A stretch of DNA of 64,000 nucleotides from positions 46,381 to 110,380 of IMG/VR virus record IMGVR_UViG_3300037606_000137. One strand, written 5' to 3'. Positions 14,138 to 47,681 of the stretch are shown here, piece after piece. Source of the stretch: a virus. The notes below the pieces were generated by a model. That model saw only the letters and a program-made list of their open reading frames with translations. It did no database searches and was not told where the DNA came from. Positions within the stretch are counted from its first letter, which is position 1. Each line of letters begins with the position of its first letter. Made by a program: the position numbers and the translations under genes.

Positions 14138-14521
14138 ATGCAAAAAAATGTTAGTGTTGTATTGATTAACGAGCACGGTAACGTGTTATGTGTTTCAAGA
14201 AAAGATAATCATTTAGATTTTGGAATGCCTGCTGGAAAAGTTGATGATACTGATTTAAATGAATTGGAAGCAGCTCATCGTGAAGTAAAAGAAGAAACCG
14301 GATTAGATATAAATAATTTAAGATTGATTTATGCTAATTGTGAAAATGAATCTATGGGATATACATATTTAGCAGATTATTCAGGTGTAATTGAGTTTAA
14401 CGAACCACATGTTGTTAAATGGGGTTCATTTAAAGATTTAATTGCTGGAACTTTCAGTAAATGGAATGAAAATGTATACAATTCATTAATTGAAATGAAA
14501 ATTAATGTAAATATTAAATAA
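14138..14521 (+). CDS. Nudix hydrolase
   Basis: 127 residues from ATG 14138. The Nudix box is present (PAGKVDD, then AAHREVKEETGL: the REVxEExG helix with catalytic Glu residues), with about three extra residues before the helix compared with the canonical GX5EX7REUXEEXGU. It hydrolyses nucleoside diphosphates linked to another moiety; the substrate (ADP-ribose, dNTP, NADH or an RNA cap) cannot be read from sequence. NAD-metabolism genes nearby make ADP-ribose or NADH plausible. Transcribed alone from a TATATTTG promoter. Confidence 0.85.
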   Translation: MQKNVSVVLINEHGNVLCVSRKDNHLDFGMPAGKVDDTDLNELEAAHREVKEETGLDINNLRLIYANCENESMGYTYLADYSGVIEFNEPHVVKWGSFKDLIAGTFSKWNENVYNSLIEMKINVNIK

Positions 14522-14546
14522 AATATTTTTTATTCAAAAAGTTTAG

Positions 14547-14554
14547 TATATTTG
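14547..14554 (+). promoter_or_regulatory. TATATTTG promoter upstream of the sigma-70 gene
   Basis: TAnnTTTG-type -7 element 33 bp before the ATG at 14587; no clear -33 box. Confidence 0.6.
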
Positions 14555-14586
14555 TCGAGTATAAATTAAATAAATTAAAATATAAT

Positions 14587-15510
14587 ATGTCAAAATTTAA
14601 CATTCATGCAAAATTAACAATAATTGAACAGGATTCAATTGATAAATATTTACAAGAATTGCGTTTAGATAAAACAACTACGCCGTTATCTCGAGCTGAA
14701 CAAAATAGTTTATTTAGTCAATACAAAATGACAGGTGACAAACTAATTAAAGATCGTTTAATTAAATCAAATTTACGATGGGTTATATCTGTTGCAAAAC
14801 AATATACTTATACAAAAGTTAAATTAGCAGATTTAATTAATGAAGGAAATATTGGTATGATTGAAGCAATAGATAAATTTGATGTTTCTCGAGAAACGTC
14901 ATTTATTACATTTGCGACAAATTACATTAGATTAGCTATAACATCATATATTAATGACGTTGCTGTAGATATTCCACAACCAGCTAATCGTTTTAGAATT
15001 AATCGTTTAATTAAAAAAGCATTATTAGATTTAAAAATATGTGGAAACAATACACCATCAGATTATCAATTAGTTGAATATTATGCATCAATTAAAAAAC
15101 AATGTGATCCAATTTTAAGTGTTTCATTATTGAATGAAGTAAGAAACAATTCTAAAGATTTTGTATCAATGCATACAAGTGTATCATCTAGTAGTGAAGA
15201 TTATGAATTAATTGATACATTTAAATCTTCAAAAGAATGGAATGCAGATTTTGAAATGGAAAAAACTGAAAAAACAAATATTTTAAATGAATATTTAAAA
15301 AAACATTTAAATGAGCGTGAATTAGAAATTATAACAATGTCATTTGGTTTAATCACACAACTGTCAATGACAAATGAAGAAATTTCATTTCGAACAGGAT
15401 ATACTCGTGAAAGAGTTGGACAAATCATAAAAGAAGGTGTTAAAAAATTAAGTAAAAATAAAAACATTTTAAATGGTTTAAGTGAAACAAACTATAGCAT
15501 TGTTTCTTAA
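14587..15510 (+). CDS. Sigma-70 family RNA polymerase sigma factor (primary-like)
   Basis: 307 residues. N-terminal DSIDKYLQEL and TPLSRAEQ (region 1.2), NLRWVISVAKQY, LADLINEGNIGMIEAIDKFD (region 2.1-2.2), TFATNYIRLAITSYI (2.3-2.4), region 3, and a region 4 with LNERELEIITMSFGL then EEISFRTGYTRERVGQI (helix-turn-helix). The layout matches Bacteroidetes RpoD of about 290 residues, so it likely directs host core polymerase to a subset of phage promoters. Region 2.4 differs from the typical primary-sigma motif (RLAITSYI instead of RQAI..), which suggests altered -10 specificity. Monocistronic: its own TATATTTG promoter before, strong terminator after. Confidence 0.9.
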   Translation: MSKFNIHAKLTIIEQDSIDKYLQELRLDKTTTPLSRAEQNSLFSQYKMTGDKLIKDRLIKSNLRWVISVAKQYTYTKVKLADLINEGNIGMIEAIDKFDVSRETSFITFATNYIRLAITSYINDVAVDIPQPANRFRINRLIKKALLDLKICGNNTPSDYQLVEYYASIKKQCDPILSVSLLNEVRNNSKDFVSMHTSVSSSSEDYELIDTFKSSKEWNADFEMEKTEKTNILNEYLKKHLNERELEIITMSFGLITQLSMTNEEISFRTGYTRERVGQIIKEGVKKLSKNKNILNGLSETNYSIVS

Positions 15511-15586: not shown

Positions 15587-16072
15587 ATGGAGAGTAATTA
15601 TACTGATTGTTTACAATATATACCAGATTTAAAAAAATATGTTAAAAAATGTGTAGGCGGAAGTGAATGGGAAGATGTTGTACAAGATACATTGTTATAT
15701 TTATTTTTAAAGTATGATAATATTAATGTTACAAATGTTAAAGGTTTATTAATAAATACATCACTATTTTTTATAAAAAAACATTTATCATATAATAGTA
15801 AAGTAAATACGTGTGAAATTAATGATACAAATATTATTATAGATTATAATAATGCAAATATTAAAATTGGAAAATATAATTCTATTTTAATAGATGATAC
15901 ATTATTTAATAATATTAATAGAGTATCAAAATCTTTATTTATACCATTCCAAATGCAATTAAATGGTAAATCTATAGAAAGTATAGCTAAAGTATTAAAA
16001 ATAAATGAAAACACTATTAAAACACGAATAAGACGGTGTAAGTCTGTATTAAGAGAAAATATAATATTATGA
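15587..16072 (+). CDS. ECF-type sigma factor
   Basis: 161 residues, the usual two-domain ECF size. Region 2: EWEDVVQDTLLYLFLKYD. Region 4: GKSIESIAKVLKINENTIKTRIRRC, a clear helix-turn-helix. The linker is Asn-rich. This is a second phage-encoded sigma, probably for a different (perhaps late) promoter class, by analogy with T4 gp55. Its stop overlaps the next start (ATGA), coupling it to the Thg1-like gene. Confidence 0.82.
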   Translation: MESNYTDCLQYIPDLKKYVKKCVGGSEWEDVVQDTLLYLFLKYDNINVTNVKGLLINTSLFFIKKHLSYNSKVNTCEINDTNIIIDYNNANIKIGKYNSILIDDTLFNNINRVSKSLFIPFQMQLNGKSIESIAKVLKINENTIKTRIRRCKSVLRENIIL

Positions 16073-16962
16073 ATAATAAATTAAAATTAGATGATCGTAT
16101 GAAACAATACGAACATATTAATAGAAACTATTTAATTCCTAACATGTATAATGTTATTCGTTTAGATGGTAAAGCTTTTCATACATATACAAAGCAATTT
16201 ATTAAACCATTTGATGATGTATTTATTAATGCAATGAATGAAACTGCAAAATATATATGTGAAACAATGCAAGGTGCAAAATTTGCTTTTGTACAAAGTG
16301 ATGAAATATCTATATATTTTACAGATACTGATAACCATGAACAACAATTATGGTTTGGTGGTAATATACAAAAAATAGTATCAGTAGCAGCATCTAAAGC
16401 AGCAGCAAAATTTAACCAAATTATATTTTTACATAATTCAAAATCTACAATAGAAGAATTACAACAACTACAATTAGCCGAATTTGATGCTCGCGTTTTT
16501 CAATTACCAAACAAACATGAATTATTAAATTGTTTTATTTGGAGACAAGAAGATTGTATTAGAAATAGTGTATCTACTGTAGCACAATATTTTTATTCTA
16601 CAAAAGAATTACATAAAAAAACAGTAAAAGATATGAAAACTATGCTACTTGAAAGTGGTAGAGCATGGGAAAATTATAATTCAAAATATAAAAATGGTAG
16701 ATTTATTTCTAAAGAAATTTATATAAATGATATTTTAGTTGGTGATAATGAAACAGAAATTCGGTACCAACCAGATAATGAAGGTATTTTTAAATCTAAA
16801 TATGGTAGAGCATTACAATTAAACACGTCTGAAAATGATGAAATTGATTGGTGTGATATTAAAATTAAAAAAATGAGATCTTTTTGGAATATTTCTAATG
16901 CTAATATATTTTTAAACGTTAGAGAAACATTAATAAAAAAATATTTTCATAATGATAAATAA
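16069..16962 (+). CDS. Thg1-like 3'-5' nucleotide-adding tRNA polymerase
   Basis: 297 residues. Shows the Thg1 catalytic palm: RLDGKAFHTYTKQF at 31-44 (metal Asp33) and FVQSDEISIYF at 74-84 (Asp78, Glu79), plus PFDD and N-terminal MKQYE. Family members add nucleotides to RNA 5' ends in the 3'-5' direction: tRNA-His maturation in eukaryotes, template-dependent 5' repair of tRNAs in bacterial and archaeal Thg1-like proteins. Here it could repair or edit phage or host tRNAs; the phage tRNA cluster begins 1.6 kb downstream and includes degenerate copies. Coupled to the ECF sigma gene by ATGA. Confidence 0.85.
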   Translation: MNNKLKLDDRMKQYEHINRNYLIPNMYNVIRLDGKAFHTYTKQFIKPFDDVFINAMNETAKYICETMQGAKFAFVQSDEISIYFTDTDNHEQQLWFGGNIQKIVSVAASKAAAKFNQIIFLHNSKSTIEELQQLQLAEFDARVFQLPNKHELLNCFIWRQEDCIRNSVSTVAQYFYSTKELHKKTVKDMKTMLLESGRAWENYNSKYKNGRFISKEIYINDILVGDNETEIRYQPDNEGIFKSKYGRALQLNTSENDEIDWCDIKIKKMRSFWNISNANIFLNVRETLIKKYFHNDK

Positions 16963-18605: not shown

Positions 18606-18677
18606 GCTCCTATCGTCTAACGGTCAGGACTCTACCTTTTCAAGGTAGCAATGAGAGTTCGATTCTCTCTGGGAGTA
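18606..18677 (+). tRNA. tRNA-Glu (UUC)
   Basis: 72 nt, cloverleaf complete. Acceptor GCTCCTA with TGGGAGT (two wobble pairs), anticodon arm CTACC-TTTTCAA-GGTAG giving anticodon TTC, T arm GAGAG-TTCGATT-CTCTC. No CCA encoded. Confidence 0.92.
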
Positions 18678-18759
18678 CAAAAAATAAATTGTAGTGTACA
18701 ATAGGTGAAATTTGTATATGAATGGTAAGACAGCTCGAGACTGTATTTATTTTTTTTAA

Positions 18760-18839
18760 CTAGATGCTTGAGCAGTTGGTTGAACTCGCCTGTTTTGGGA
18801 ACAGGAGCATTTGCGTAGGTTCGAATCCTACCATCTAGA
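18760..18839 (+). tRNA. tRNA-Pro (UGG)
   Basis: 80 nt. Acceptor CTAGATG with CATCTAG (perfect), anticodon arm CCTGT-TTTGGGA-ACAGG giving anticodon TGG, T arm GTAGG-TTCGAAT-CCTAC, discriminator A. No CCA encoded. Confidence 0.92.
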
Positions 18840-18858
18840 CATAAATTATTGATAACAA

Positions 18859-18946
18859 ACAAGTTACAATAAAAAATATATTTACTAGTAATGTTTAGTA
18901 AATTAAAGATAATAGTTGGATAATGAAAATATGAGCTGTAACTTGT
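18859..18946 (+). other. Structured intergenic segment between tRNAs (nested inverted repeats)
   Basis: The 196-nt gap 18840-19035 has no gene. It holds ACAAGTTACA (18859-18868) matched exactly by TGTAACTTGT (18937-18946), and inside it a hairpin TTTACTA/TAGTAAA (18881-18902). This looks like an RNA that folds and may be a processed spacer or small RNA. No tRNA could be fitted to it. Confidence 0.35.
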
Positions 18947-19035
18947 ATAATAGTAATTATAAGCTAGAATATAGAAATGATATAATATTTAAGTATTATT
19001 ACAGTAAGAAAGAATTAAATTGAATTGAAGTATTT

Positions 19036-19110
19036 TTTATGTGTGGTGTAATTGGATAGGCACGCTTGCGTTGAGTGAGTAGATTATTGGTTCGAATCCA
19101 ATACATGAAA
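19036..19110 (+). tRNA. tRNA-like sequence, possibly tRNA-Gln (UUG), degenerate
   Basis: 75 nt with acceptor TTTATGT/ACATGAA (one wobble) and a good T arm ATTGG-TTCGAAT-CCAAT. The anticodon stem GCTTG/TGAGT pairs only with wobbles. The loop CGTTGAG would give TTG but has G instead of the nearly universal T33. Either a decayed tRNA or one needing repair or editing. Confidence 0.5.
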
Positions 19111-19120
19111 CAAAAAATAA

Positions 19121-19191
19121 GGTCCATTGGTGAAATGGTATCATGACTCACTGTCTATGAGTTGTCGTCGGATCGTAACCGGCATGGACCG
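19121..19191 (+). tRNA. tRNA-Asp (GUC)
   Basis: 71 nt. Acceptor GGTCCAT/ATGGACC (perfect), anticodon arm ACTCA-CTGTCTA-TGAGT giving GTC, T arm GTCGG-ATCGTAA-CCGGC, discriminator G. Position 37 is T, where a purine is usual. Confidence 0.85.
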
Positions 19192-19217
19192 CTAAAGAAA
19201 CAAAAATAATAAAATAA

Positions 19218-19290
19218 GGTCCTGTAGCACAATTGGTAGTGTAACTTGTTGTCTGCGAGATGGTTGACGGTTCGAATCCGTTCAGGACCG
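19218..19290 (+). tRNA. Second tRNA with anticodon GUC (Asp-type)
   Basis: 73 nt. Acceptor GGTCCTG/CAGGACC (perfect), D stem GCAC/GTGT, anticodon arm ACTTG-TTGTCTG-CGAGA (outer A-A mismatch), T arm GACGG-TTCGAAT-CCGTT, discriminator G. Read literally the anticodon is GTC again with T37, like its neighbour, so the pair looks like a diverged duplication. Confidence 0.75.
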
Positions 19291-19310
19291 CAATAAACTG
19301 AGTTAGTGTA

Positions 19311-19337
19311 CTACAAGTTCGAAACTTGTGATCTTGA
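19311..19337 (+). other. tRNA 3'-half remnant
   Basis: ACAAG-TTCGAAA-CTTGT is a perfect T arm followed by GATCTTGA, but no matching 5' acceptor or anticodon arm precedes it. Probably a decayed tRNA. Confidence 0.45.
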
Positions 19338-19473
19338 CAAAAAAAAATTAAAAAAGATGAAAAAAATAATAGTAAATAAAAATGTAATGATAAGTGTAAG
19401 AAATATTTCTTATTCATATTATTATAACTTATTGAAATCTCAATGAGACTGAAATTGTATTTTAACAAATTTT

Positions 19474-19507
19474 AAGTCCTATTGAGAAATCAGTAGGACT
19501 TTTTTTA
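19474..19507 (+). terminator. Rho-independent terminator inside the tRNA cluster
   Basis: AAGTCCTATTGA pairs with TCAGTAGGACTT around a GAAA tetraloop, then seven T. It separates the tRNA-Asp genes from the interrupted tRNA-Tyr. Confidence 0.9.
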
Positions 19508-19510
19508 TAA

Positions 19511-19556
19511 CCGACAGTATGCAAGTGGTTAAAGCAGGGGGATTGTAAATCCTGTT
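19511..19556 (+). tRNA. tRNA-Tyr (GUA), 5' part; gene interrupted by a 588-bp insertion
   Basis: Acceptor 5' strand CCGACAG, D arm TGC...GCA, anticodon arm GGGGA-TTGTAAA-TCCTG giving GTA. The acceptor finds no partner in the following bases. Its exact complement CTGTCGG lies 658 bp downstream at 20175-20181, beyond an HNH endonuclease gene. Joining 19556 to 20145 rebuilds an 84-nt class II tRNA-Tyr with variable arm TTCTCTTCGGAGTTC (stem CTC/GAG around TTCG). Confidence 0.82.
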
Positions 19557-20144
19557 ACAGTCAATTCGAATTTAATATATAAAGATAAAAAACTATATAT
19601 GTGTGATTTGAAAAAATGTGAAAATTGTGATAACGATCATAATGGTGATTATGGAAGTGGAAGATTCTGTTCGAATAAATGTGCTAGAGGATTCTCAACC
19701 AAAAATAAACGAAAAGAAATAAATAAAAAAGTAAGTAATACATTACAGTTAAAATTAAATAATGGATTAACAACACAACAAGTAATACAAAAAAAATATG
19801 CAGCTAAACACGCTTCTTATATTAGAGAAACTGAAATAACTACATTATATGATTTAAGTACACGTACAATAAGTAAAATATTAAAAAGATTAAAATTACC
19901 ATGTTCATTATGTAAATGGTATGTTGAAGATGTTGTTGGTGATTTACATCATATAATAGAAAGAAAAAATGGTGGTTCAAACAATCATGATAATTTAACA
20001 TATGTATGTCCTAATTGTCATAGATTAATTCATTCTAATAAAATAGATAATAGTAAAATAATAAATCTTAAAGATTATATTGGTGACGAATGGAAAAAAT
20101 ATTATTATGTAATCAATAAAAAATTAATAAACAAATAATTTGTT
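19557..20144 (+). mobile_element. 588-bp insertion in tRNA-Tyr carrying an HNH endonuclease gene
   Basis: The insert is bounded by TGTT on both sides (19553-19556 and 20141-20144), as expected for a target-site duplication or short homology. Only 42 nt precede and 6 nt follow the HNH gene, too little for a group I or II intron core, and no cut point gives the U before / G at the end expected of group I introns. It looks like a mobile endonuclease gene rather than a self-splicing intron. Confidence 0.7.
19599..20138 (+). CDS. HNH homing endonuclease
   Basis: 179 residues. An N-terminal zinc-binding segment (CENCDNDH, FCSNKCARGFST) is typical of phage HNH proteins. The middle has a helix-turn-helix-like stretch (LYDLSTRTISKILKRL). 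The C-terminal HNH motif is CSLC, DLHHIIERKNGGSNNHDNL, then CPNCHRLIH, with both Zn Cys pairs and the catalytic His pair present. It lies wholly inside a tRNA-Tyr gene, so the likely target is an uninterrupted tRNA-Tyr variable-arm sequence. The stop is 6 nt before the tRNA resumes. Confidence 0.9.
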   Translation: MCDLKKCENCDNDHNGDYGSGRFCSNKCARGFSTKNKRKEINKKVSNTLQLKLNNGLTTQQVIQKKYAAKHASYIRETEITTLYDLSTRTISKILKRLKLPCSLCKWYVEDVVGDLHHIIERKNGGSNNHDNLTYVCPNCHRLIHSNKIDNSKIINLKDYIGDEWKKYYYVINKKLINK

Positions 20145-20185
20145 CTCTTCGGAGTTCGTAAGTTCAAATCTTACCTGTCGGACCA
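20145..20185 (+). tRNA. tRNA-Tyr (GUA), 3' part with encoded CCA
   Basis: Variable arm remainder CTCTTCGGAGTTC, T arm GTAAG-TTCAAAT-CTTAC, acceptor 3' strand CTGTCGG, discriminator A (20182) and CCA (20183-20185). It is the exact partner of 19511-19556. It is the only tRNA here seen with an encoded CCA. Confidence 0.82.
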
Positions 20186-20351: not shown

Positions 20352-20885
20352 ATGGGAACAATAAAAGATTATATACAAGAAAGAATAACATTAAATCATT
20401 TACCTTTAAATATTAATGAATGTTTAGCTGTTATAGAAACATATGAAACAATATATTCTAATGTTTCAGAGAAAGAACGTTTTTTTTTATTTATCAAAAA
20501 TAAAGTTGGAGAAATACTAACAAATATTGATGAAGATTTGTCTGAAATTTTAGGATGGTTACATGTACATAAAAGTAAACAAGATATAGTTTATTTTTTA
20601 TTTGAAACCGAAGAAGATTATTATAATTGGTTAAGTGTTCGTAAAGATTTATATTTACAATTAAATGAAGATTACACAAGATTATTAAATTTTTTAGAAT
20701 TATCGACTATGGATTTCATTTCTGATATAACTACTAATTGTAATTATATCTTAGAATTAAAAAATAAAAAAACAGATTTTAAAAAAGAAGGATATGGTGT
20801 TGATGTTGAATCAACAATATCATTCATTAAATACTTAGGTGCATCATTTAAAAAAGGATATAACTTTAAACCAACAAAAATATGA
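20352..20885 (+). CDS. Hypothetical protein, 177 residues
   Basis: Not recognised. Largely helical, soluble, charged. First gene after the tRNA region; the 166-bp gap before it holds TTCATATATAATA and no clear TAnnTTTG box. Overlaps the next start by ATGA. Confidence 0.55.
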   Translation: MGTIKDYIQERITLNHLPLNINECLAVIETYETIYSNVSEKERFFLFIKNKVGEILTNIDEDLSEILGWLHVHKSKQDIVYFLFETEEDYYNWLSVRKDLYLQLNEDYTRLLNFLELSTMDFISDITTNCNYILELKNKKTDFKKEGYGVDVESTISFIKYLGASFKKGYNFKPTKI

Positions 20886-21145: not shown

Positions 21146-21393
21146 ATACAATTAAAATAAGACAATACACACCACCACAATTATCAGTTTTTGATTTCAA
21201 TGATCAATTTATTGGATTTATTAACCATTATGAAGAATTTAAATCGTTACAAAATGATATTTTTAATAATGCTATTACTGGTTATTACGCTACTTATGGT
21301 GAACATAAAATAATTTTTACAGAATTTGGTTATGTTGGTATAGATAATATTATATTTTTAAAATCACTTTATAATATAAAACATGAATATTAA
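21142..21393 (+). CDS. Hypothetical protein, 83 residues
   Basis: Not recognised. Start chosen at ATG 21142, which overlaps the upstream stop as ATGA; an earlier in-frame ATG at 21112 lies deep in the previous gene. Its end overlaps nadE by 11 nt. Confidence 0.55.
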   Translation: MNTIKIRQYTPPQLSVFDFNDQFIGFINHYEEFKSLQNDIFNNAITGYYATYGEHKIIFTEFGYVGIDNIIFLKSLYNIKHEY

Positions 21394-22297
21394 AAATATT
21401 GATGTTAGTAAAATTTCAGATTTAATTTTATTAACAAAAGATTTAAGAAATTTCAAAAGTGAAATTGTATTAAAAGCAAAATTAGAAGCAATAAACAATT
21501 TTTTTAAAACACATAATTTAGATTCTTGTGTTTTAGGTTTATCTGGTGGTATAGATTCATCAGTTGTTTTAATGTTATTATTAGAAGCATCAAAATTATC
21601 AGAATCACCAATTAAAAAAGTGATTGGTGCATTTATGCCAATTTATTCTCAAGGTATTACTGGACAAGATGCTGCTAATGTATATGTAAATCAATTATTA
21701 TTATTTCTTGCAGAAAGTTATAGTGTATTTAATTATAGAAAAATAGATTTAAGTATAGTTTCAAACGAATATAGTAAAACATTAAATATACGTGATAAAC
21801 GAACAGTTGGACAAATTGATTCTATTATTAGAACACCTGCAATGTATGGTCTTGCTGCTGATTTACAATATAGAAATTTTAAATCTATTGTTGTAGGAAC
21901 TACAAATAGAGATGAAGGTGCATATATCGGATTTTATGGTAAAGCAAGTGATGGAATGAATGATCTTCAACCAATTGCTGATTTACATAAATCAGAAGTT
22001 ATTGAATTAGCAAAATTGTTAAACATTGATAAACATATTATAAATCGTCCACCAATGGGTGATGTTTGGGATGGATCATTAGATGAAGATACAATTGGTG
22101 CACCTTATTGGGCATTAGAAATGTATCAAATACTTATGGAATTTAATGCAACATACTTAATTAATAGAGTTACAAATTGTCCAGAATTAATCAAATATGT
22201 ATTAAATATAGAATCAATTCATAATATAAATGCTCATAAATATATGGTTGGTTCTCCAAGTCATTATATCGATGTAATGAATAGAAAAATAAAATAA
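21383..22297 (+). CDS. nadE: NH3-dependent NAD synthetase
   Basis: 304 residues, similar to single-domain NadE. Amidates nicotinic acid adenine dinucleotide to NAD using ATP. ATP-pyrophosphatase loop LGLSGGIDSS at 51-60, GAFMPIYSQ, and the synthetase signature GTTNRDEGAYIGFYGKASD with NDLQPIADLHKSEV. No glutaminase domain, so it would use ammonia. With the adenylyltransferases at 5603 and 27146 it completes the NaMN to NaAD to NAD branch. It is translated within a chain of overlapping small genes. Confidence 0.92.
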   Translation: MNIKNIDVSKISDLILLTKDLRNFKSEIVLKAKLEAINNFFKTHNLDSCVLGLSGGIDSSVVLMLLLEASKLSESPIKKVIGAFMPIYSQGITGQDAANVYVNQLLLFLAESYSVFNYRKIDLSIVSNEYSKTLNIRDKRTVGQIDSIIRTPAMYGLAADLQYRNFKSIVVGTTNRDEGAYIGFYGKASDGMNDLQPIADLHKSEVIELAKLLNIDKHIINRPPMGDVWDGSLDEDTIGAPYWALEMYQILMEFNATYLINRVTNCPELIKYVLNIESIHNINAHKYMVGSPSHYIDVMNRKIK

Positions 22298-45313: not shown

Positions 45314-45401
45314 ATTTAAAAATTGAATTCATCATAATTTTCATCGTCTACATCTTGTTTAAATGCACCAACCGTATAAGAAATTATTTCTTCTTCCTGT
45401 G
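45314..45401 (-). repeat. 88-bp direct repeat, downstream copy (nrdB tail fused to GIY-YIG gene)
   Basis: Matches 46606-46693 at 87 of 88 positions (mismatch C45390/G46682). It encodes the last 27 residues of NrdB, here in frame at the end of the GIY-YIG gene. Confidence 0.95.
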
Positions 45402-46200
45402 TATTAACATACATATCATAATGATATAATTTCCAGCCTTGTGTTTTACCGTATTTGGGCGCAATAGATGTATTAATTCGTTTATCTAATGTTGATTTAG
45501 ATATATTGTATTTTTTACAAAAATCTATTATATCATTACCTTTTACATTATATACACCATTTAATGATGATGTAAATATATAATTTAATGCACGTTTACT
45601 TTTTTTCCCTTTATTGGCTTTCCCTATTTTATTTCTTATTTCTTGTGTAACTTCAACACCATATCTAGCATTACCTTTACCACTCTGTAATTTCGATAAT
45701 AATTTTAATGTTTCTGTTGTATGTTTTTTTCCTTTAAAATATCCACCTGCATCTTTTTGTAATTTGTTTCTTAATTTTCTTTGTATTTTAGCTTTTTCAA
45801 CACCATATATTTCTTCATATGTTTTACCGGCATGATTAGGAGGTCGATTATCAATACAAAAATTACATAAAGTTCCACGTTTAATAGTTTCACCATCAAT
45901 TGTTCCTATTTCTTTAATTAAAATAGATTCTAAATCATATACAATACTTTCATTTGTATTTTGATTTATTTCTATAATAAATGGATTTAAATTCAATTTA
46001 AATATTTTATCTAATTTATTATATAAAATTGAATTTATTCTACTTTTACGGTTTGTTTTATAATATGTTATATGATTATTTTTTCTCTTGTTTTTACCTT
46101 TTCCAACATAAATTGGTTCATATAAAAAACAAATATCATTATATTCATATTTTCCTGGTTTTCTTGGGTCTAAATATATGTAATTATAAAAAATATCCAT
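45316..46200 (-). CDS. GIY-YIG homing endonuclease with NrdB C-terminal tail fused on
   Basis: 294 residues. GIY-YIG nuclease domain: YIYLDP at 7-12, IYVGKGKNKR at 30-39, and DLESILIKEIG with the catalytic Glu near 91. NUMOD3-like DNA-binding segments follow: FKGKKHTTETLKLLSKLQSG and GNARYG. A final helix-turn-helix is seen at 222-245. The last 27 residues (268-294, QEEEIISYTVGAFKQ... to EFNF) are almost identical to the C-terminus of NrdB, due to an 88-bp direct repeat. The gene is part of a ~1.3-kb cassette inserted at the 3' end of nrdB; its start overlaps the preceding cassette gene by 17 nt. Confidence 0.9.
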   Translation of the reverse strand: MDIFYNYIYLDPRKPGKYEYNDICFLYEPIYVGKGKNKRKNNHITYYKTNRKSRINSILYNKLDKIFKLNLNPFIIEINQNTNESIVYDLESILIKEIGTIDGETIKRGTLCNFCIDNRPPNHAGKTYEEIYGVEKAKIQRKLRNKLQKDAGGYFKGKKHTTETLKLLSKLQSGKGNARYGVEVTQEIRNKIGKANKGKKSKRALNYIFTSSLNGVYNVKGNDIIDFCKKYNISKSTLDKRINTSIAPKYGKTQGWKLYHYDMYVNTQEEEIISYTVGAFKQDVDDENYDEFNF

Positions 46201-46624
46201 TAGTATTAATCGTTGTATTTATTGTTTCTATTTTGTATTCAGAATATAATATTTGTTTAAAAATATTTATATTTTTTCCATAAACAAACAATTTTTTATC
46301 ATAAATACGACATGGTGTAATATCTAAAACGTTTTTTGTTTTTTTGTTAATAACAACAGAATGTAAAATACATAATAATGTTGTGTTTTCTTTATTAATT
46401 AATACATAAAAACCTAATAATTTATCATATGTTTTATTTTTTTTAATGAATATATTAACATTATTATGACAATTATTTTCACCATATATACTAAAATTTG
46501 TATTTGTAGATAATAATTCAATTGAATCATTATTAATAAAAACTTCTAATTTTTTAAATATTTTAGAAGTTTTTATTGGTAAATACCACTTATGTATTAT
46601 ATCCGATTTAAAAATTGAATTCAT
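46184..46624 (-). CDS. Cassette-carried protein of unknown function, 146 residues
   Basis: Start chosen at ATG 46624 (MNSIFKSD), 17 nt inside the end of nrdB in another frame; ATG 46636 is an alternative. No family recognised. Mostly strands, with HSVVINKKTKNVLDITPC in the middle. It lies inside the 1.3-kb insertion between the two 88-bp repeats, so it travels with the GIY-YIG gene. Confidence 0.55.
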   Translation of the reverse strand: MNSIFKSDIIHKWYLPIKTSKIFKKLEVFINNDSIELLSTNTNFSIYGENNCHNNVNIFIKKNKTYDKLLGFYVLINKENTTLLCILHSVVINKKTKNVLDITPCRIYDKKLFVYGKNINIFKQILYSEYKIETINTTINTNGYFL

Positions 46625-46693
46625 CATAATTTTCATCGTCTACATCTTGTTTAAATGCACCAACCGTATAAGAAATTATTTGTTCTTCCTGTG
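46606..46693 (-). repeat. 88-bp direct repeat, upstream copy (native end of nrdB frame)
   Basis: Encodes NrdB residues 330-357. Identical to 45314-45401 except one base, at an offset of exactly 1292 bp, which would be the size of the inserted unit. Confidence 0.95.
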
Positions 46694-47681
46694 GTGCTTC
46701 CTGAACAGTATTACCACCAATCCAATTACCAATCCATGAAATTGGGTTTTTAACTTTATCAAAAATTGGATCTAATTTTATCATTTTTAATCGATTATTA
46801 GTTAACCATTGCATATATTCAATTAATATATCTGAATTTAACCCAATAATAGATCCATCTTTAAATAAATATTTAGCCCATTCAATTTCTTCATCTGCTG
46901 CATCTTTATACATTTGAATAACCGTTTCTTTACAATCTTCTGCAATTTGTAGAAAACCTTCACTTTCATCTTCACCCATGCGTTTTAAAACAAATGAACT
47001 AAAACCCATATGTAAATTTTCATCTCTTGCAATTAACGATATAATTTTAGCATTACCTGTCATTTTTTTATTTTGTGCAAAAGCAAAAGAACATGCAAAT
47101 GATACATAAAATCTAATACCTTCTAAAATGTTAATAGAAACTAAAGTTAAATATAATTTCTTCTTTCTATCATATTCAGATTCATCTGGTATTTTATTAA
47201 TCAATGCATCGTAATATTTTGTAACCGAACTTGCTCTTTTAATAATTTCTTCATCTTCTAAAATATTATCCAATACTTCTGTAGGATTTGTATAAATTTG
47301 TTTAATAATATATGTGTACGAATATGAATGTATTGTTTCAGAAAACTCCCATGCTTTAGCAAATGCCTCTATTTCAGAATTTGTACAATTTTCTAATAAA
47401 TTAGAAATACCTCGTGATTGAATACTGTCTAGTAATATTTGGTACCCAAGATTTTTTGTAAATATAAATTTCTCATGTTCAGATAAATTATTAAAATCAC
47501 TTTTATCTTTACTTACATTAATTTCTTCTGGTCTCCAAAAGTATGATAATTGTTGTTTAAACATATTAAACAATTTTTCATATTTTGGTTGATCATATCG
47601 TTGTATTCCCATTCCTTCTTTACCGAAAAAAATTGGTTGTAACGAATTTTTTTTTTGATTTGTATTTATTATTGATTTCAT
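46608..47681 (-). CDS. nrdB: Ribonucleoside-diphosphate reductase beta subunit (class I)
   Basis: 357 residues. Diiron and radical residues are all present: Asp85, Glu115, His118 and radical Tyr122 (SETIHSYSY), Glu188 (NILEGIRFY), Glu221 and His224 (ARDENLHMG). Supplies the tyrosyl radical to NrdA for making dNDPs. The last ~20 residues (YTVGAFKQDVDDENYDEFNF) are the tail that in this family docks onto the alpha subunit. That tail is duplicated at the end of the GIY-YIG gene downstream, showing that a cassette has entered here and supplied a replacement 3' end. Confidence 0.95.
   Translation of the reverse strand: MKSIINTNQKKNSLQPIFFGKEGMGIQRYDQPKYEKLFNMFKQQLSYFWRPEEINVSKDKSDFNNLSEHEKFIFTKNLGYQILLDSIQSRGISNLLENCTNSEIEAFAKAWEFSETIHSYSYTYIIKQIYTNPTEVLDNILEDEEIIKRASSVTKYYDALINKIPDESEYDRKKKLYLTLVSINILEGIRFYVSFACSFAFAQNKKMTGNAKIISLIARDENLHMGFSSFVLKRMGEDESEGFLQIAEDCKETVIQMYKDAADEEIEWAKYLFKDGSIIGLNSDILIEYMQWLTNNRLKMIKLDPIFDKVKNPISWIGNWIGGNTVQEAPQEEQIISYTVGAFKQDVDDENYDEFNF

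Follow-up and report, generated by a model that had tools for sequence, protein, structure and literature searches.

Homing endonucleases and phage tRNA genes

Free-standing homing endonucleases are known from phage tRNA arrays, SegB of the T4/T6 arrays being an example. SegB cuts within tRNA genes, prefers the motif RAWTSGAAC genome-wide and shows no isotype preference in its association (PMC13096335); judged by its letters, the motif appears to be the complement of the T-loop consensus. The segB gene has a late promoter and a hairpin leader, and its product promotes the inheritance or amplification of tRNA genes including tRNA-Tyr (PMC13096335, PMC2988022). Free-standing HNH genes are also known to split phage protein genes, mobE in Aeh1 nrdA and mobA in T4 gene 60 (PMC2988022). 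Endonucleases specific for one tRNA and located inside group I introns are known as well, as cited in a 2014 review (PMC3984707). Archaeal split tRNAs depend on a bulge-helix-bulge, a splicing endonuclease and a ligase (PMC4390854, PMC3218864).

Like segB, the HNH gene studied here lies in a phage tRNA array and is of the free-standing homing endonuclease kind. It was found in the window, i.e., the whole stretch of 64,000 nt analysed, bases 46381–110380 of a 110,380-bp virus record. While SegB is a GIY-YIG enzyme, lies between tRNAs and is isotype-neutral, the window gene encodes an HNH protein with a Cys4 motif, in which no GIY-YIG domain was found; it belongs to a clade linked to tRNA-Tyr and lies inside a tRNA gene. 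As with mobE and mobA, the host gene has its coding sequence broken up by a free-standing HNH gene and no intron is involved (PMC2988022); however, in those hosts two polypeptides reassemble, whereas the host in the window is a tRNA, for which reassembly is only hypothetical. The bacterial intron-borne endonucleases likewise concern one tRNA type and are inserted in that tRNA gene, but they ride a self-splicing group I intron, and none is detectable in the window (PMC3984707). The two-part tRNA gene recalls the archaeal disrupted, split and permuted tRNA genes (PMC4390854, PMC3218864), but domain searches for RtcB and RNA ligase and folding of the junction gave no sign of their processing elements in the window. 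In the open-access literature, no account was found of an intron-less homing gene inside a tRNA or of isotype-linked families.

The anti-phage defences Septu and retron-Eco7 cut at tRNA-Tyr and its variable loop. tRNA-Tyr genes would therefore be defence target, counter-defence and homing site together. Beyond the known presence of free-standing homing endonucleases such as SegB in phage tRNA arrays, the present data show, for one family found in many phages, that nuclease type and tRNA isotype are linked. It can thus be tested if homing endonucleases cause phage tRNAs to spread, to be replaced or to be destroyed.

Anatomy of the split tRNA-Tyr locus

A tRNA-Tyr(GUA) gene is present in two pieces, 19511–19556 and 20145–20185, separated by an insert of 588 bp at 19557–20144 (all on the plus strand). 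The 5' part contains the acceptor CCGACAG, the D-arm, the anticodon arm (GTA) and the start of the variable arm; the 3' part contains the remaining variable arm, the T-arm, the acceptor CTGTCGG and an encoded ACCA (20182–20185). The acceptor strands at 19511–19517 and 20175–20181 are paired at 7/7 positions, and the T-arm GTAAG-TTCAAAT-CTTAC (20158–20174) has a 5/5 T-stem and a canonical T-loop. When the flanks were joined, ARAGORN called a class II tRNA-Tyr(gta) of 87 nt including CCA, with a GG-containing D-arm and a long variable arm; its anticodon stem is imperfect, with one G.U and one G/G. At the uncut locus no tRNA was reported by ARAGORN or by the Rfam tRNA model, even at E up to 5, and neither program found a complete tRNA in the 5' half alone. 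The earlier note had described a single tRNA-Tyr interrupted in its variable arm and keeping an encoded CCA, and its coordinates proved exact. The TGTT it had placed at both ends of the insert was located at 19553–19556, at the insert boundary, and at 20141–20144 (plus strand). A staggered cut may have duplicated these 4 bp, or the repeat may be a coincidence; taken alone it is weak evidence for a target-site duplication, and the tRNA structure does not fix its position.

To control the split for chance, homing-endonuclease loci were cut at a grid of points, their 5' and 3' flanks were joined, and those joined tRNAs were counted of which neither part belonged to an intact tRNA. The window gave 57 tRNA-Tyr calls with constant ends, while no mismatched flank pair (n = 1320) gave more than 15 or came up to 20. 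Orphan T-arms for which a complementary acceptor lies upstream were sought in a second scan, which placed the window near the top (80 calls); in the decoy orientation there was one strong match in total. Two other loci were set aside: L065, a group I-type tRNA, was not counted as its calls recurred with mismatched flanks, and L137 was rejected as a second class II tRNA with an HNH gene inside, since no join restores an intact tRNA.

The insert is made up of a leader of 42 nt that has a promoter-like box of its own, an HNH gene of 540 bp and a further 6 bp, so that, as the earlier note had stated, it is almost wholly one HNH gene. The gene (19599–20138, plus strand; Pfam HNH, 2e-7) encodes 179 amino acids, with a Cys4 motif near the N-terminus and an HNH domain in the C-terminal part, assigned by Pfam, profile and residue comparison. 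C7, C10, C24 and C28 form a putative zinc finger. The HNH domain carries C102, C105, D115, H117, H118, N132, C137 and H141, which are conserved, together with C140, and its catalytic and zinc-binding residues are intact. A profile search ties the domain to those of McrA and IscB; the structure model (mean pLDDT 70) is usable for the HNH domain only. The N-terminus bears the family signature C-E-x-C...G-x-Y-G-S-G-R-F-C-S-x-K-C-A-R-x-F-S-T-K-x-K-R-x-x-I-N, and the gene lies in the tRNA array, on the array strand and inside a tRNA gene, in keeping with the placement of the family.

In the leader (19557–19598, plus strand), by-eye comparison with relatives picked out TTCGAA (19565–19570) and TATATAAA (19576–19583). 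Leaders of the relatives have in common, by eye and with no background comparison, the motif GTTCGAA/TTGAAC together with a box resembling TATAAATA, and GGTTCAA often lies over the start region as an inverted repeat (also by eye). T4 homing endonucleases have late-promoter leaders with hairpins hiding the ribosome-binding site, and the I-TevI operator mimics the I-TevI homing site; the family leaders resemble both (PMC2988022). As TTCGAA and TATATAAA stand at the same places as the relatives' motifs, the interrupter of tRNA-Tyr appears to be an ordinary cassette, the standard leader-plus-ORF unit of a tRNA-array homing-endonuclease family.

The plus-strand array upstream encodes Glu, Pro, Gln, Asp and Asp tRNAs (18606–19291; ARAGORN, Rfam), and among all tRNAs at 18606–20185 only the split tRNA-Tyr has an encoded CCA. 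Further partnerless tRNA fragments or tRNA-like pieces were seen at 18700–18745 and 19296–19335, the latter with no matching 5' acceptor nearby, and in L009 at 14270–14660 (minus strand); the arrays of this phage thus hold several broken tRNA genes. Upstream of the array, 16069–16962 encodes a Thg1-like tRNA 3'-5' polymerase (Pfam 3e-31). DNA polymerase, NrdA/NrdB, DNA ligase, NAD synthetase, a sigma factor and other proteins, identified partly by reading the sequences, together with the low G+C content suggest a large T4-like phage, perhaps infecting Bacteroidota.

The earlier note had proposed a search of relatives for an uninterrupted tRNA-Tyr; no such allele of this tRNA came to light. An exact 24-base search of viral contigs for the uninterrupted 5' end gave no match, nor did the joined tRNA-Tyr match any of six NrdA-matched contigs of related phages; against phages it gave only general tRNA-Tyr/Val matches. 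In the largest of the NrdA-matched contigs (G003), with 29 tRNAs, no tRNA-Tyr was called in its four tRNA regions, and no syntenic relatives were recovered with the neighbouring proteins 20352–20885 and 21383–22297 as baits. The 110-kb record, which is incomplete, yielded no further tRNA-Tyr in one contiguous piece. A stretch of about 1 kb free of ORFs lies between tRNA-Ser and tRNA-Met at G000:C1 31900–32880 (= L009 11900–12880, minus strand); it is rich in stem-loops by eye, has no Rfam match and is possibly a large phage non-coding RNA.

The homing family and its tRNA neighbours

The family was scanned with a profile of the N-terminal 50 residues, and the best 80 of 149 viral loci plus four genome loci were analysed. 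The N-terminus is common to the members, while the C-terminal nuclease domains differ: HNH, PD-(D/E)xK/Vsr-like (by motif) and others. In this set (best 80 of 149, plus four), dereplicated to 68 distinct members, 57 have a tRNA within 80 nt. Typically, the gene starts 40–70 nt past an intact tRNA and its stop falls between −44 and +20 nt from the first base of the next tRNA, sometimes with the stop codon within that tRNA. The statement of the earlier note that HNH genes in phage tRNA regions usually lie between tRNAs therefore holds for family members. Sequence comparison shows that the N-terminal Cys4 motif is associated with tRNA arrays, and the nuclease domains with particular isotypes.

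Where members have a neighbouring tRNA, 92 of 211 pairs with similar nuclease domains shared the neighbour's isotype; shuffling gave 24.5 such pairs on average and never more than 48 in 5000 rounds. A group with the motif WYSPSNKG and its relatives had a tRNA-Cys neighbour in 5/6. For the window clade, the first scan found tRNA-Tyr within 80 nt in five of the six nearest relatives and in 0/60 others (p = 7e-7), and a second scan, restricted to the nuclease domain (31 distinct loci), found a tRNA-Tyr anticodon arm up to 150 nt upstream or 130 nt downstream of 23 clade members versus 2/60 other family members (p = 9e-13), p-values that overstate independence because the members share ancestry. 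A whole-tRNA-Tyr finder, which misses many real genes, gave 10/31 versus 2/60 (p = 3e-4, with the same reservation) and is superseded by the anticodon-arm test. The two scans have L131, L132, L133, L165 and L168 in common. The association could partly reflect common descent of a linked tRNA and not target choice; the varied position of tRNA-Tyr, which lies upstream, downstream, on both sides (L147, L148) or around the gene, speaks otherwise. The HNH clade of the window is specifically associated with tRNA-Tyr, a point which, like the cassette nature of the insert, the earlier note had missed.

Lak phages, which infect Prevotella, have HNH homologues that lack the Cys4 motif and start 5–10 nt past an intact tRNA-Tyr. 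Beside the HNH gene of L130, L134, L139, L143 and L152 there are tRNA-Tyr-like genes missed by ARAGORN, in which, by eye, the D-region pairs 3' of the anticodon arm, inside the long variable arm; in the example CCCGTC...GACGGG-TGGTT the D-stem is replaced by a pseudoknot-like pairing (by eye).

Other cassettes were found inside tRNAs or breaking them. In L027 and L046/L047 a block of tRNA-Cys and homing gene stands between a 26-nt tRNA 5' end and a T-arm–acceptor 3' end. The acceptors of the broken tRNA are 7/7 complementary (GGTTCGG/CCGAACC; GTACAGG/CCTGTAC), and its anticodon arm is lost. Judging from the T at the discriminator position ahead of CCA, the broken gene had probably been a tRNA-Cys too; the block carries its own intact tRNA-Cys. 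In L063, L085 and L129 orphan tRNA 3' halves lie directly 3' of the homing gene. Together, these cases indicate that tRNA genes do receive such cassettes in their interior and are mostly wrecked by them. The cleanest case, perhaps also the most recent, is that of the window; it presents a homing gene in its presumed target and names a candidate cut site.

Origin of the split gene and fate of the tRNA

We consider it probable that a free-standing homing endonuclease cassette with an affinity for tRNA-Tyr landed inside its target, most likely inactivating it. The HNH protein would cut tRNA-Tyr genes that lack the cassette, and double-strand-break repair would copy the cassette into the cut site. 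In most phages the cassette has come to lie just before or after an intact tRNA-Tyr, whereas in the window it lies inside the variable arm, and the insertion point may therefore mark or neighbour the cut site. As both tRNA-Tyr halves are intact in sequence, the insertion is probably recent; undecayed halves would also be expected if the tRNA-Tyr were functional. Since neither an intron core nor an RNA ligase could be recognised, expression of the tRNA-Tyr gene most likely yields no working tRNA.

A self-splicing intron carrying the HNH gene, with a ribozyme core that overlaps the ORF or is too divergent for detection, seems very unlikely. Intron-borne homing endonucleases are common in phages, and related arrays do have tRNAs with a group I intron in the anticodon loop (L077, L065, L092). 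Nevertheless, cmscan gave no Rfam group I or group II match in the insert at E up to 5 with permissive filters, neither to the conserved group I core (RF00028) nor to group II domain V, while the L077 intron was detected by the same tool at 1.5e-7. Only 48 nt lie outside the ORF, too little RNA for a group I or II intron in the argument of the earlier note, and the leader-plus-ORF build is the same as in cassettes between tRNAs. Its further argument, that the junctions do not fit the group I end rule (U before the intron, G at its end), is weaker: the rule could be satisfied only by a join that lengthens the variable arm by 2 nt, but the length of this arm is free and a join after U19556 with an intron ending at G20142 would fit, so that the junction argument is not decisive. 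It is the absence of a catalytic core, rather than the junction, that decides against an intron. An assembly artefact of the metagenomic contig is barely conceivable: the arrangement does come from a single record, but insert and flanks are biologically coherent, and comparable arrangements are seen elsewhere, in the contigs L027 and L046 and beside tRNA-Tyr in named phages. We also regard as unlikely a recombination remnant of two tRNA-Tyr copies flanking an HNH gene, one having lost its 3' half and the other its 5' half. An HNH gene does lie between two tRNA-Tyr copies in L147 and L148, and broken tRNA pieces are common in such arrays; however, the acceptors match at 7/7 positions, and apart from the 4-bp repeat nothing is lost or gained when the halves are joined. 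One insertion is the simplest explanation for this, two independent deletions ending at the same variable-arm position being less likely.

The transcript could also be cut at the insert edges, its halves assembling with a nick in the variable arm or being rejoined into a working tRNA-Tyr, as in the two-piece enzymes of Aeh1 nrdA. Both halves are intact, with perfect acceptor and T-stem, and split yet working phage protein genes are known (PMC2988022); in an in silico fold of the whole transcript the acceptor closes across the insert with a probability of about 0.69. Against this, the predicted pairing of the two halves (−22.6 kcal/mol) is no stronger than that of shuffled halves (−19.9 +/- 2.9 kcal/mol), folding revealed nothing of note in the insert outside the ORF and no stable junction structure, and neither an RNA ligase (PF09414) nor RtcB was matched in the phage record or in G003. 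The halves in relatives have lost the anticodon arm, which indicates broken genes. A working two-piece tRNA is therefore doubtful. The same observations leave excision by an undescribed route, which the earlier note had offered besides inactivity, without support, and inactivity is most likely. A tRNA-Tyr that did work in two pieces, or was rejoined by a host enzyme, would be a split phage tRNA made by a homing endonuclease and perhaps unseen by defences that cut tRNA-Tyr; we give this only a slight chance.

Several other interrupted genes were observed. Group I introns lie in phage tRNA anticodon loops at L077:2163–2443 (Rfam), L065:1738–2010 and L092:4536–4822 (the latter two by look); the 2014 review stated that phage introns were known from protein genes only (PMC3984707). 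tRNA-Asn(GUU) carries an insert of 78–79 nt within the anticodon (GU^U) at L050:4354–4504, L080:2284–2434 and L021:3288–3440. The three inserts have a common fold, in which 8/19 pairs are changed on both sides, match no Rfam family and are smaller than known introns of group I or group II; the same tRNA-Asn is uninterrupted at L066:2103–2175. A tRNA at L069:1971–2104 has a 58-nt insert. In the window itself, nrdB (45316–46200) and a downstream GIY-YIG homing endonuclease gene (46608–47681), both on the minus strand, encode the same last ~22 residues, ISYTVGAFKQDVDDENYDEFNF; this reads as an insertion near the 3' end of nrdB, with that end duplicated.
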